In this document: piece by piece, positions 18,867-23,011 of the stretch
Numbering within the stretch: position 1 is the first letter of the stretch
Layout: each line of letters opens with the position of its first letter
Source: Candidatus Gastranaerophilales bacterium
Lineage (GTDB): Bacteria; Cyanobacteriota; Vampirovibrionia; Gastranaerophilales; Gastranaerophilaceae
Direction of reading: 5' to 3'
Assembly: GCA_944323535.1 (NCBI GenBank)
Contig: CALUSW010000012.1
Span: 1 to 34,620, forward strand
DNA length: 34,620 nucleotides
Position numbers and translations under genes: made by a program
The notes under the pieces: model-generated
Told to the model about the DNA's origin: nothing
What the model saw: only the letters and a program-made list of their open reading frames with translations
The model's database searches: none

Positions 18867-19847
18867 TTAAATCAAATATTTTGCGCGGTCGCAAATTTCC
18901 AACCGGTAAAAATTCATTTCTTTTGATTTTGCAGCTACATATTTCATTAAGTCAATTATTCTTTTATCCGGTTCTTCTTTTCTATATCTGTTCAGCCAGC
19001 TGTTTTCAATATCTATTACAATAATACCTATATTATTATCTTTGTTAAATTTCAGCCAATTATCAATTTCAACAGTATTATCATTTATTTCCGGAATAAT
19101 AATATATTTGCTGATTACGTTATAAGAACCTCTTTGTGATTTTGCATATTTTTTTAAATTTTTGCATACCGTTTCATATTTGTCAGTTTGTTTTATTTTT
19201 TTATAGATTTCTTTTGATGAGCTGTCAACGGAAACAACAACGGAAAGCTGTCCGGTTGATATTCCTTTTGCTATAACGGGGGAATACTTAATTCCGGAAG
19301 AGGGCACCCTTATATTTGAAAATCCGTTCTTTAAAAATAAATTTATAAGTTTTTCAAATTCGGGAAGTATTGTCGGTTCACCGCCGCCAAAACCAATAGC
19401 ACCGCCTCTTTTTATTATTTTTTTATCAAACATATCTTTTATGATGGGATAAATGTTATATGTTTTTAAACTGTTATAACGTTTCTTATCTTCTTCAGTA
19501 TAACAATAGCTGCAGCAGCAATTGCATTTTGTAAAATGGTCAAATATTATGGAATCTATATAATCAATTTGCGGCCATTCATTCTCTTCAAGAAAAACAC
19601 ATCCTCTGCAGCCTTCAACTGTTTGACCGGATTTTTGTATATTCCTGTATTCATTTTTTATTTTAAAAAAGTTATCCCAGTTTATCTTTTCACCGTGATA
19701 ATCTTCAAATATCATAGAGTTGCCGCCGCCCGGGGCACTCATATAACAGCATAATTTTACATTTGAACCATATACTCCGTTATCAAAACAAACACCTGAT
19801 TCTAACCATTTACAGCTTATATACTTTTCTTTTTTTATTTCCTGCAT
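18867..19847 (-). CDS. Radical SAM enzyme with N-terminal Cys block
   Basis: 326 residues. The radical SAM motif CxxxCxxC is C108, C112, C115, followed by Y116; the glycine-rich SAM site FGGGEPT is at 153-159. Before the core there are cysteines at 12, 20, 33, 34, 80 and 83 spaced like a SPASM/twitch auxiliary-cluster domain, which normally follows the core. The order therefore looks permuted. C-terminal to the core there is only C319. The reaction is unknown; related enzymes modify peptides, sugars or lipids. It is third and last in the operon, seven bases after the other radical SAM gene, with AGG six bases before its ATG. No precursor-peptide-like small ORF was found beside it. Confidence 0.82.
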   Translation of the reverse strand: MQEIKKEKYISCKWLESGVCFDNGVYGSNVKLCCYMSAPGGGNSMIFEDYHGEKINWDNFFKIKNEYRNIQKSGQTVEGCRGCVFLEENEWPQIDYIDSIIFDHFTKCNCCCSYCYTEEDKKRYNSLKTYNIYPIIKDMFDKKIIKRGGAIGFGGGEPTILPEFEKLINLFLKNGFSNIRVPSSGIKYSPVIAKGISTGQLSVVVSVDSSSKEIYKKIKQTDKYETVCKNLKKYAKSQRGSYNVISKYIIIPEINDNTVEIDNWLKFNKDNNIGIIVIDIENSWLNRYRKEEPDKRIIDLMKYVAAKSKEMNFYRLEICDRAKYLI

Positions 19848-19854
19848 ATTATAC

Positions 19855-20829
19855 CTATTTAAAATTACAGTTTAAAAGCCTGCAATTTTTTGTACATTTT
19901 AAAATATTTTCCCTGACTTTATCCGCTTTTTCACTGTACCATAAATCCTGAGGCAAACTTTCTTTCAGATTTCCGATAGGTTCCATACAAAAACAAATAC
20001 GGCAATTTCCGTACGGATCGATTGCAAAATTATTTTCTCCGACCATACATTGTATATTTTGAATTTCCTCCGGAGTATCAATTAATATCTTAAATGCTTT
20101 CAGCTGGCTAAACCCGTTACATACAGGATAGCCTTCTTCTTTAAGACGTATCATTTCATCTATTGCATTTAATGCTGCTTTTTTTATATCACTGCCGTAT
20201 ATTTGATTGCCGGAGTCAACAAGAGTTGAAAAAGCATCTCCGTTATCCATCAGCTGATAGCTTACACCTATTCCCTCTGTTTTACAAAATTCCGCTATCG
20301 GTCTTATTTCAGATAAATTCGAAGGCATTACAACTGTTGATAAAAATATATTTTTCCATTTATGATTGCTGTCATATTTATTTTTGTAGACTAAATTTTG
20401 TATAGAATCCATAGTTCGTTGGAATGCGTCATTTCTTCCTCTTGAAGTATTATGGATAGAAGGATTTTCTACCGAATTAAGAGAAAAAGTAATATTTGTA
20501 AAAGAGGATTGCAATACTTTATCAAGTTTATCAGGCAGAGCAAGCCCGTTAGTAACAATATTTACAGTATCTCCCAAATCTGAAGCATACTTTGCCATTT
20601 CAAATACATCATCACGAATAAAAGGCTCTCCGCCGGAAATTATAAATTGATAATTTCCTATCCAGTTATGCATATTAAAAAGAACTTTTTTCCATTCTTC
20701 AAGCGTCATTTCTTTTTGCTGAACTTCAGCAGGCGTTTTCCAGCCGTTACAAGTAATGCACCTCGACTGGCACCTCTCTGTATTATTATAGGAGAAGGAA
20801 ACAGGTTTTTTATTTTTATCTATTGTCAT
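19855..20829 (-). CDS. Radical SAM/SPASM enzyme
   Basis: 324 residues. CxxxCxxC is C20, C24, C27, and the SAM-binding ISGGEPF is at 64-70. The C-terminus has a SPASM-type cysteine set at C261, C276, C279, C281, C312, C316 and C321, including the strand AIDPYGNCRICF, for extra iron-sulfur clusters. Enzymes of this architecture (MoaA/PqqE/anSME-like) carry out peptide or small-molecule modifications; the substrate here cannot be inferred. It starts three bases after the stop of the GGDEF gene and is followed closely by a second radical SAM gene, so the pair probably acts on the same substrate or in successive steps. Confidence 0.85.
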   Translation of the reverse strand: MTIDKNKKPVSFSYNNTERCQSRCITCNGWKTPAEVQQKEMTLEEWKKVLFNMHNWIGNYQFIISGGEPFIRDDVFEMAKYASDLGDTVNIVTNGLALPDKLDKVLQSSFTNITFSLNSVENPSIHNTSRGRNDAFQRTMDSIQNLVYKNKYDSNHKWKNIFLSTVVMPSNLSEIRPIAEFCKTEGIGVSYQLMDNGDAFSTLVDSGNQIYGSDIKKAALNAIDEMIRLKEEGYPVCNGFSQLKAFKILIDTPEEIQNIQCMVGENNFAIDPYGNCRICFCMEPIGNLKESLPQDLWYSEKADKVRENILKCTKNCRLLNCNFK

Positions 20830-20832
20830 ATT

Positions 20833-21711
20833 TTAATAATCCAAATTTACCTGTGAAAATAAAACTATTTTATTTTTACCGCGTTTTTTAGCATTATATA
20901 AAGCATGTTCCGCATACCTTATAAGAGAATTAGCATTTTCGTCAATATTATCAATCTGCGGATAAGAAGCAATTCCTCCAGAGACTTTTACCGGATGTCT
21001 TTCTACTTCGCCTGCCGGAATAAATGACATTTTTTCAATATCTCTTCTAAATCTTTCAGCAAAAATAAATGCATTCTCTTCACTTGTATCAGGAAGAATA
21101 ACCATAAATTCTTCATCACCGTATCTGGTAACGACATCTTCTTTTCTTGCTAAATTTTGAAGCATTTCCGCAACTTTTTTAAGAAGAACATCTCCCCATT
21201 CGTAGCCGTACATATCATTTACAACTTTGAAGAAATCAAGGTCAAACAAAATACAAGAGACGGTTGAATTATACCTTTTTGCTCTTGACATTTCAGATTC
21301 TAATCTTTCAAGCATAAATTTTCTGTTATGAAGACCGGTAAGTTCATCTGTTGTTGTTATATTATTTATTTTGTCTTTAAGTTCTTTTATTTTTATAAGA
21401 TTTTTTAATCGCACCGAAAATTCATATTCATTAATAGGATTAAGAATATAATCATAAGCCTCGCCTCTGACAGTTATATTTTCGGGTGTATCATCAGAAA
21501 CAACAAGAACAGGAACAGGAAATTTCATTATCATAGACAATTCTTTCAGTTTACCTAATGAAATATCAAAAATAGCAGCATCCGGATTTAAAACTTCAAT
21601 TTCCTTTATATCGTCAATATTTTTAACCGTAACTTCCGCCTCAAACAACTTTTTGACAAGATTTTCTATTGATGATGTTTTCCCCTCTGTATAAATAACA
21701 AGCCTGCTCAT
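20833..21711 (-). CDS. GGDEF protein with degenerate receiver domain
   Basis: 292 residues from the ATG at 21711, which has AAGGA about eight bases upstream; an ATG at 21789 would add 26 residues without such support. Residues 1-110 look like a response-regulator receiver: D49 fits the phosphorylation site, but the conserved Lys is replaced (LNP, N91). A GGDEF domain follows with TDELTGLHNR (121-130) and FDLDFFK (156-162). The signature reads RYGDEEF (196-202), so the second Gly of GGDEF is Asp. An RxxD inhibitory site (RKED, 189-192) is correctly placed. It may be a weak diguanylate cyclase, or a c-di-GMP or GTP sensor. It leads the operon with two radical SAM genes. Confidence 0.85.
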   Translation of the reverse strand: MSRLVIYTEGKTSSIENLVKKLFEAEVTVKNIDDIKEIEVLNPDAAIFDISLGKLKELSMIMKFPVPVLVVSDDTPENITVRGEAYDYILNPINEYEFSVRLKNLIKIKELKDKINNITTTDELTGLHNRKFMLERLESEMSRAKRYNSTVSCILFDLDFFKVVNDMYGYEWGDVLLKKVAEMLQNLARKEDVVTRYGDEEFMVILPDTSEENAFIFAERFRRDIEKMSFIPAGEVERHPVKVSGGIASYPQIDNIDENANSLIRYAEHALYNAKKRGKNKIVLFSQVNLDY

Positions 21712-21801
21712 TAATAAATCCTTTCCATATACCGCTTTTATTTTATCAAATTTATTAAAAAAGTTCAAAGGTTCTGTTTTTTGTTGCATATTTTAACAAA
21801 T

Positions 21802-21850: not shown

Positions 21851-23011
21851 TTGCCGGAACCGAAATATAATAATTATGCGAAAACAGACTTATATACTTC
21901 TTTCTATGAGCAATACTATTTTAAGAATAAGCCTGCAAAAATAAAGCCGATAAAAAAATTTTCAGGTAAAAAGAAATCCGGAAACAAAATAGGCGTGGCG
22001 GCTTTTATAGTTTTTTCCGCTTTACTTTTTGTTGTTTGTACATTTTCTTTCAGAACTTTTATCGCAGATATATTTCCTTATAATACCAAAAATGCATTAA
22101 AAGCAGACTATCGAAAACTTCTTTATCCTACACATAATTATTTATATAAGGATTTATTTCTCGGTAAATACATAATACAGGATACTAACTATAGTAATCC
22201 GCTAATGATTGATATGAAAGAATCATATGAAAGAAACGGTTTAAAAAACAGATTGATTGCACTTGCAAATGATTATTCAAAAATAGAACCTTCCATATAC
22301 GTATGGGAATATACAGGTAAATCTTATGTTAATATAAATGCAGATATAGCTTTTCCTGCTGCAAGTATAATAAAAATTCCCGTATTAATTGAAATGTTCA
22401 GGGAGATTGAACATGGCAAGTTTTCTCTTGACGATAAAATGGTGTTGGAAGATCATTATAGAGCTCCGGGGTCAGGGAAACTTCAATATTCGCAAGGCGG
22501 TATTGCCCATACTATGGATTATCTGGCAAAAATAATGATAGAAAACTCCGATAACTCTTCAACCAATATGATAATTTCCAAAATCGGCGGAATGCCGCAG
22601 GTAAATAGAGCCATTAAAAGATGGGGGCTTAAAACAACCCATATAAATAACTGGCTGCCTGATATGGACGGAACAAACGTAACAACATCAAGAGAAATGG
22701 CTAAAATGTTTTACAATATTGATTCAACAAACATTTTATCCAACGAATCAAAAAGACATATTGCAAGATATCTTTCCCATGTAAAAAATAACAGACTTCT
22801 TCAAGCCGGATTACCTCAGGAGGCAATTCTTCTGCATAAAACCGGAGATATAGGCTTTATGCTCGGTGATGCAGGTATTGTAAAGACTGCAAACGGCAGA
22901 AAATATATTGTCGTTATTCTTGTAAAAAGACCTTACAATCATCATCAGGGCAAAGATTTTATTGTTAAAGCTTCAGAAATAATTTATAATAATATTTCTT
23001 ATCAAAATTAA
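21851..23011 (+). CDS. Membrane-anchored class A beta-lactamase-like serine hydrolase
   Basis: 386 residues. A cytoplasmic basic N-terminus and one membrane segment (about 47-66) place the rest outside the inner membrane. The penicillin-recognising motifs are all present: SxxK as S172-I-I-K175, SDN at 233-235 and KTG at 330-332. The omega-loop Glu of true class A beta-lactamases is not evident; the region reads NWLPDMDGTN. Peptidoglycan-related activity or a weak lactamase is therefore as likely as antibiotic resistance. The start codon is TTG, strongly supported by AGGAGG six to eight bases upstream and a promoter; no in-frame ATG lies nearby. Confidence 0.85.
   Translation: MPEPKYNNYAKTDLYTSFYEQYYFKNKPAKIKPIKKFSGKKKSGNKIGVAAFIVFSALLFVVCTFSFRTFIADIFPYNTKNALKADYRKLLYPTHNYLYKDLFLGKYIIQDTNYSNPLMIDMKESYERNGLKNRLIALANDYSKIEPSIYVWEYTGKSYVNINADIAFPAASIIKIPVLIEMFREIEHGKFSLDDKMVLEDHYRAPGSGKLQYSQGGIAHTMDYLAKIMIENSDNSSTNMIISKIGGMPQVNRAIKRWGLKTTHINNWLPDMDGTNVTTSREMAKMFYNIDSTNILSNESKRHIARYLSHVKNNRLLQAGLPQEAILLHKTGDIGFMLGDAGIVKTANGRKYIVVILVKRPYNHHQGKDFIVKASEIIYNNISYQN

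Follow-up and report, generated by a model that had tools for sequence, protein, structure and literature searches.

What a GGDEF-domain protein has to do with two dissimilar radical SAM enzymes is the question raised by three consecutive genes in the window, i.e. the whole 34,620-nt stretch of Candidatus Gastranaerophilales DNA analysed here. The genes, with the enzymes named rSAM1 and rSAM2, are arranged as follows.

20833-21789, reverse strand: GGDEF protein gene (open reading frame from the first ATG; likely start at ATG 21711, giving 292 aa)
20830-20832, reverse strand: gap of 3 nt between the GGDEF gene and rSAM1 (read from the sequence; near-constant spacing in relatives)
19855-20829, reverse strand: rSAM1 gene, 324 aa (open reading frame)
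19848-19854, reverse strand: gap of 7 nt between rSAM1 and rSAM2 (read from the sequence; spacing also measured in relatives)
18867-19847, reverse strand: rSAM2 gene, 326 aa (open reading frame)

The open reading frames and the sequence itself agreed with a preliminary description of the trio, in its reverse-strand orientation and in its intergenic distances of 3 and 7 nt, and the internal start that it proposed for the GGDEF gene (ATG 21711) is the position from which relatives align. By eye, an AGG overlapping the rSAM1 stop codon is a candidate ribosome-binding site for rSAM2. An rSAM1 alignment, used to scan GTDB genomes, retrieved 76 loci; the titles name Gastranaerophilales MAGs, and the sample names indicate animal guts as the source, including rumen, rabbit, goat and deer. 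In 35 loci of relatives the spacing from the GGDEF gene to rSAM1 was -11 to 13 nt, mostly 1-2 nt, and in 33 loci that from rSAM1 to rSAM2 was -26 to 9 nt, mostly 5-9 nt. Conservation of the three-gene order across Gastranaerophilales, a point raised in the preliminary description, held in part: the order is kept in most MAGs with this rSAM1, in genera g1 and g19, but is split in genus g13, where all three genes lie apart, and in the lineage of G123, G452 and L140. In L140, rSAM1 still follows the GGDEF gene and other genes occupy the place of rSAM2, while in G452 and G123 the two rSAM genes are on separate contigs. Since order and spacing are conserved in g1 and g19, co-transcription of the operon genes is likely in the rSAM-bearing genera. 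Promoter-like sites in the operon region showed no excess over shuffled sequence (21 versus 16.3 +/- 4.3).

A divergent Beta-lactamase2 (PF13354) family gene (window 21851-23011, forward strand) adjoins the GGDEF gene, as it does in the majority of rSAM1 loci; in some family genomes without rSAMs, divergent genes of similar appearance stand beside the GGDEF gene. At one locus (L128:7089-7979, upstream of rSAM1) the GGDEF frame was not called in the MAG and an antisense frame is longest, possibly reflecting a frameshift or assembly error.

The first gene had been read as encoding a receiver-GGDEF protein. Its GGDEF domain is clear (PF00990, 150.5 bits, residues 146-307), but the receiver is degenerate: the N-terminal half gives a weak PleD-type alignment only and, by eye, has neither the acidic pair nor the lysine that receivers usually carry. 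The protein resembles receiver-GGDEF proteins of the DgcR/PleD type in its receiver-like plus GGDEF order (168-176 bits), but it falls below the cut-offs (474-500 bits), no Pfam receiver family is among its matches up to E 1, and the active-site motif, in the window protein and in 29 of 29 family proteins read, is RYGDEEF rather than the RYGG(D/E)EF expected of a diguanylate cyclase. The sequence RKED matches the RxxD I-site pattern.

The distribution of the GGDEF gene bears directly on its proposed role. It is present in 184 of 191 family genomes and in 41 of 41 genera, nearly always as a single copy; 170 of these 184 genomes are without rSAM1 and 14 have it. In relatives without rSAM genes, an unrelated convergent gene mostly follows the GGDEF gene. 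The preliminary description proposed a dedicated regulator of a two-step radical pathway and named in advance, as evidence against it, a GGDEF gene lying apart from the rSAM genes in most relatives, which is what we found. Because the GGDEF gene is a core gene, mostly without rSAM1, the dedicated-regulator reading is weakened. In the form given by the preliminary description, the protein would genuinely respond to c-di-GMP or another nucleotide and regulate both enzymes, with a second messenger switching the radical modification. This would be compatible with either class of substrate considered below, and the 1-2 nt spacing in most of the 35 loci, the order kept in g1 and g19, the I-site-like motif and the presence of seven GGDEF domains in the genome are consistent with it. 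However, the GGDEF gene is usually without rSAMs, the other rSAM2 copies have no such GGDEF gene alongside in the loci read, all 29 active-site motifs read are GDEEF and an EAL phosphodiesterase was not found in the genome, and we regard such regulation as improbable. The adjacency of the GGDEF gene and an enzyme gene is a warning against reading neighbourhood as regulation. In the explanation we lean towards, a core GGDEF gene of ancestral origin, whatever its role may be, is joined in this operon to a pair of anaerobic rSAM enzymes.

Across the whole genome of the window's bacterium (G000), the search that gave seven GGDEF domains and no EAL domain included two GGDEF proteins whose motifs were read: one is the canonical RYGGEEF and the other is the RYGDEEF of the window.

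The two enzymes differ in design, as had been described. rSAM1 combines a Radical_SAM domain (PF04055, 63.3 bits against a gathering score of 29.5) with a C-terminal SPASM domain (PF13186, 23.5 bits against 21.5), upholding its description as a SPASM-type radical SAM enzyme. In an alignment of 30 rows, the CX3CX2C cysteines (motif CQSRCITC; C20, C24 and C27) are invariant, as are C261, C279, C312, C316 and C321 in the C-terminal part. PqqE/AhbD/NirJ-type enzymes likewise have a radical SAM domain followed by SPASM, and rSAM1 scores 56-69 bits with these models, but far under their curated cut-offs of 381-650 bits. In rSAM2, by contrast, the radical SAM core starts at residue 104 (PF04055 alone, 56.7 bits against 29.5, residues 104-260; C108, C112 and C115) and an N-terminal domain carries four cysteines (C12, C33, C80 and C83). 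As this domain has no Pfam match to PF13186, and only profile-profile homology links rSAM2 to N-SPASM/rSAM proteins (Prob 98.4 over 254 columns), it is SPASM-like at most. The same domain order is found in proteins with an N-terminal SPASM and a radical SAM domain (PF13186 + PF04055, here rSAM3), which are interleaved with rSAM2 copies on contigs C5, C31 and C49, but rSAM2 has no PF13186 match and forms a separate clade. A second rSAM family with an N-terminal SPASM ('SFDEIWNGEKAKEFR') is interleaved with rSAM2 copies at L043, L052, L055 and L203.

Structure models were obtained with a pLDDT of 86.0 for rSAM1 and 89.5 for rSAM2. The solved fold nearest to rSAM1 is the cytosylglucuronate decarboxylase BlsE (PDB 7vob; Z 24.9, rmsd 2.9 over 286 residues, 16% identity), followed by SkfB and SuiB (Z 22.2). 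BlsE decarboxylates a nucleoside-linked hexuronate, i.e. it works on a sugar carboxylate, but it belongs to a nucleoside antibiotic pathway and rSAM1 has no such pathway alongside. The rSAM2 model has the general radical SAM fold, with closest folds including SuiB (Z 17.5), SkfB and anSME, which are peptide-modifying enzymes. Fold similarity of the two models does not settle the substrate.

The preliminary description inferred a two-step radical modification for this pair of enzymes. rSAM2 is not a unique partner: a search of its own ~1.9-Mb genome gave 31 matches, itself included. The other copies have 30-51% identity to it and are scattered across many contigs. For a gut bacterium with so small a genome, this family takes up a large share of resources. 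The four N-terminal cysteines (C12, C33, C80 and C83) and the CX3CX2C cysteines are invariant in 29 aligned copies, so the copies look functional. Similar expansions are present in G159 (33 copies), G142 (42), G018 (18) and G012 (10) and in 13 of 14 further g1 genomes (11-40 copies), with none in G103 or G451; where a MAG is incomplete or fragmented, its count is a minimum. Beyond three genera, rSAM2-like domains are more distant and number no more than one or two per genome. A literature search, itself partial, returned no prior description of this expansion.

A copy number of this kind could result from selfish or neutral gene amplification without a common function, and the scattered copies, the tandem arrays and the four of 31 paralogues that lack a reciprocal best hit in the sister species would fit such an origin. 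Against this, 27 of the 31 copies are reciprocal best hits between G000 and G159, and 22 of these also share a neighbouring gene. Their median identity is 82%, compared with 76% for other genes of the same loci. In 18 pairs, dN was 0.08-0.36, far below a dS that was >1 or saturated, and in the rSAM2 tree the majority of G000 copies have a G142 copy as their partner, several duplications being older than the g1/g19 split; the backbone of the tree does not resolve monophyly of the expansion. Individual conservation in best hits, dN/dS and the tree argues for separate, lasting roles of the copies. Also against amplification are the intact catalytic cysteines in the 29 aligned copies, the few stop codons in the matches and the absence of matches in phage or plasmid collections, and we consider it very unlikely. 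Carriage of rSAM2 by mobile elements was likewise discarded as an explanation, the one weak match in viral contigs being partial.

What the enzymes act on is suggested by the fusions and neighbours of their relatives. For rSAM1, a termite-gut-type Marinilabiliaceae MAG (L187) encodes rSAM1 and a Glycos_transf_2 (GT2) domain in one 653-aa frame, at locus L188 rSAM1 is flanked by GT2 and polysaccharide deacetylase genes, and Anaerolineae relatives of rSAM1 lie among GT2 and deacetylase genes. For rSAM2, frames of 705 and 693 aa in two sister-genus genomes (G119 and G392) join GT2 to an rSAM2-like domain. Other rSAM2-like singletons adjoin genes for GT2, PS_pyruv_trans (polysaccharide pyruvyl transferase), RgpF, RfbF/RfbG/RfbH, CDP-glucose 4,6-dehydratase, NeuB-like and CapA-like proteins, and some carry hexapeptide-transferase repeats. 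In the window's own genome, contig C5 has nine rSAM2 copies together with GDP-mannose dehydratase, DegT aminotransferase and GT2 genes. These fusions and loci point to rSAM1 and rSAM2 as anaerobic glycan-tailoring enzymes, which we hold to be somewhat the better-than-even reading of the sequences. On the other side, many of the 31 copies stand singly beside housekeeping genes, outside glycan loci, and thirty distinct sugar steps would be unusually many. Moreover, since the relatives with fusions or glycan loci are at best 35-40% identical to the window enzymes, the substrate class may have shifted. The partial literature search also returned no description of an rSAM/GT2 fusion, and these natural fusions offer a concrete starting point for assays.

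Several further observations concern these loci. A B12-binding radical SAM enzyme (L043:9472-10854, L196:5745-7145) shares the glycan-like locus with the nine rSAM2 copies, and the sister species has retained it. In polysaccharide loci of sister genera (L231, L232 and L235), RfbH and CDP-sugar genes occur alongside a gene for an acetolactate-synthase-like, thiamine-diphosphate-dependent enzyme, a combination that may indicate branched CDP-sugars. Inspection by eye had suggested that rSAM2 pairs with large membrane (GT-C-like) proteins; this was rejected, because such proteins were not enriched beside rSAM2 copies (4/67 versus 7/171). A common origin of the gene after a second rSAM1 on contig C6 and the L187 extension was also rejected, the former being a DUF815 ATPase and the latter GT2.

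A known arrangement with some likeness is the ~36-kb plasmid of Brachyspira hyodysenteriae (L228), where several radical SAM/SPASM genes stand in a row beside rfbF, rfbC, glycosyltransferase and RgpF-like genes. For these genes a putative role in LOS biosynthesis or glycosylation has been suggested (PMC4267127). The sequence match is to the rSAM3 type, over part of the protein only, and not directly to rSAM2, and the plasmid has a handful of rSAM genes in one cluster compared with ~30 dispersed over the chromosome here.

Radical SAM/SPASM enzymes usually modify peptides or cofactors, as the preliminary description pointed out. Glycosyltransferase fusions among the relatives of both enzymes make a peptide or cofactor substrate less likely than a glycan. 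The main rival is nevertheless a trans-encoded protein or peptide substrate: the rSAM2 paralogues would be maturases, each serving one or a few proteins encoded elsewhere, such as surface or pilin-like proteins, and no precursor would then be expected alongside. Many copies indeed stand alone beside housekeeping genes, and most have individually conserved orthologues, as one-enzyme-one-target pairs would. Among solved folds, rSAM2 comes closest to peptide enzymes of the SuiB, anSME and SkfB-like kind, SkfB and SuiB are matched by rSAM1 as well, and pilin-like genes adjoin both rSAM1 and rSAM2 in genus g13. However, the GT2 fusions of both families and the polysaccharide loci of rSAM2-like singletons argue against maturases, and the NCBIfam peptide-maturase models score far under their cut-offs, with no curated RiPP maturase model reaching its own. 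A peptide precursor beside the enzymes was rejected, as no small, precursor-like gene family recurs next to the copies; one encoded in trans would escape this comparison. We judge the chance of the maturase reading to be rather low, about one in a handful. A defence role as prokaryotic viperins was rejected too: the NCBIfam viperin scores were 57.1 and 41.1 bits against a cut-off of 180, and PADLOC pVip matched the core only (63.3 and 47.0 bits).

By eye, many proteins of these genomes have a short N-terminal stretch that closes with a PxF(K/G/S)-like sequence (for instance PVSFKG, PQVSFGN or PAFSGN), for example at L041:13937, L042:6126 and L058:3848, among others; this may be a sorting or leader signal.

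If the enzymes do tailor glycans, SAM and a [4Fe-4S] cluster bound by CX3CX2C would in each case yield a 5'-deoxyadenosyl radical. This radical would abstract a hydrogen from a carbon of one of the sugars in a surface glycan, be it activated, lipid-linked or still growing. An auxiliary SPASM-type cluster, C-terminal in rSAM1 and N-terminal in rSAM2, may bind the substrate or take up an electron, and the predicted product is an oxidised, epimerised, deoxygenated or decarboxylated sugar. As most of the ~31 rSAM2 paralogues are individually conserved, and each presumably has its own sugar or acceptor, the host would command a large surface-tailoring repertoire. Uncultured gut relatives of Cyanobacteria may then make many radical-derived sugars not seen so far.

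The rSAM genes also occur together or not at all. rSAM1 occurs in 14 genomes of three genera among the 191 family genomes, and the rSAM2 expansion was seen only in the same three genera, always together with rSAM1 in the genomes tested. G103 and G451, two sister species of genus g1 (100/99 in a carB tree), are without every rSAM1 and rSAM2 copy; as the carB tree does not fix the place of this pair within g1, the absence may be primary or secondary. We tentatively suggest, at less than even odds, that the 30-40 or so dedicated rSAM enzymes, which are dispersed on a small chromosome and which a genome has or lacks as a set, make up a single combinatorial system for surface modification. It would use radical chemistry to diversify sugars (or proteins), possibly on a scale not described before. 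The rSAM-free sister species provide a natural control. Another genome, G462, is without the window-type rSAM1 and a close rSAM2 orthologue and keeps 40 other copies and a second rSAM1 type.
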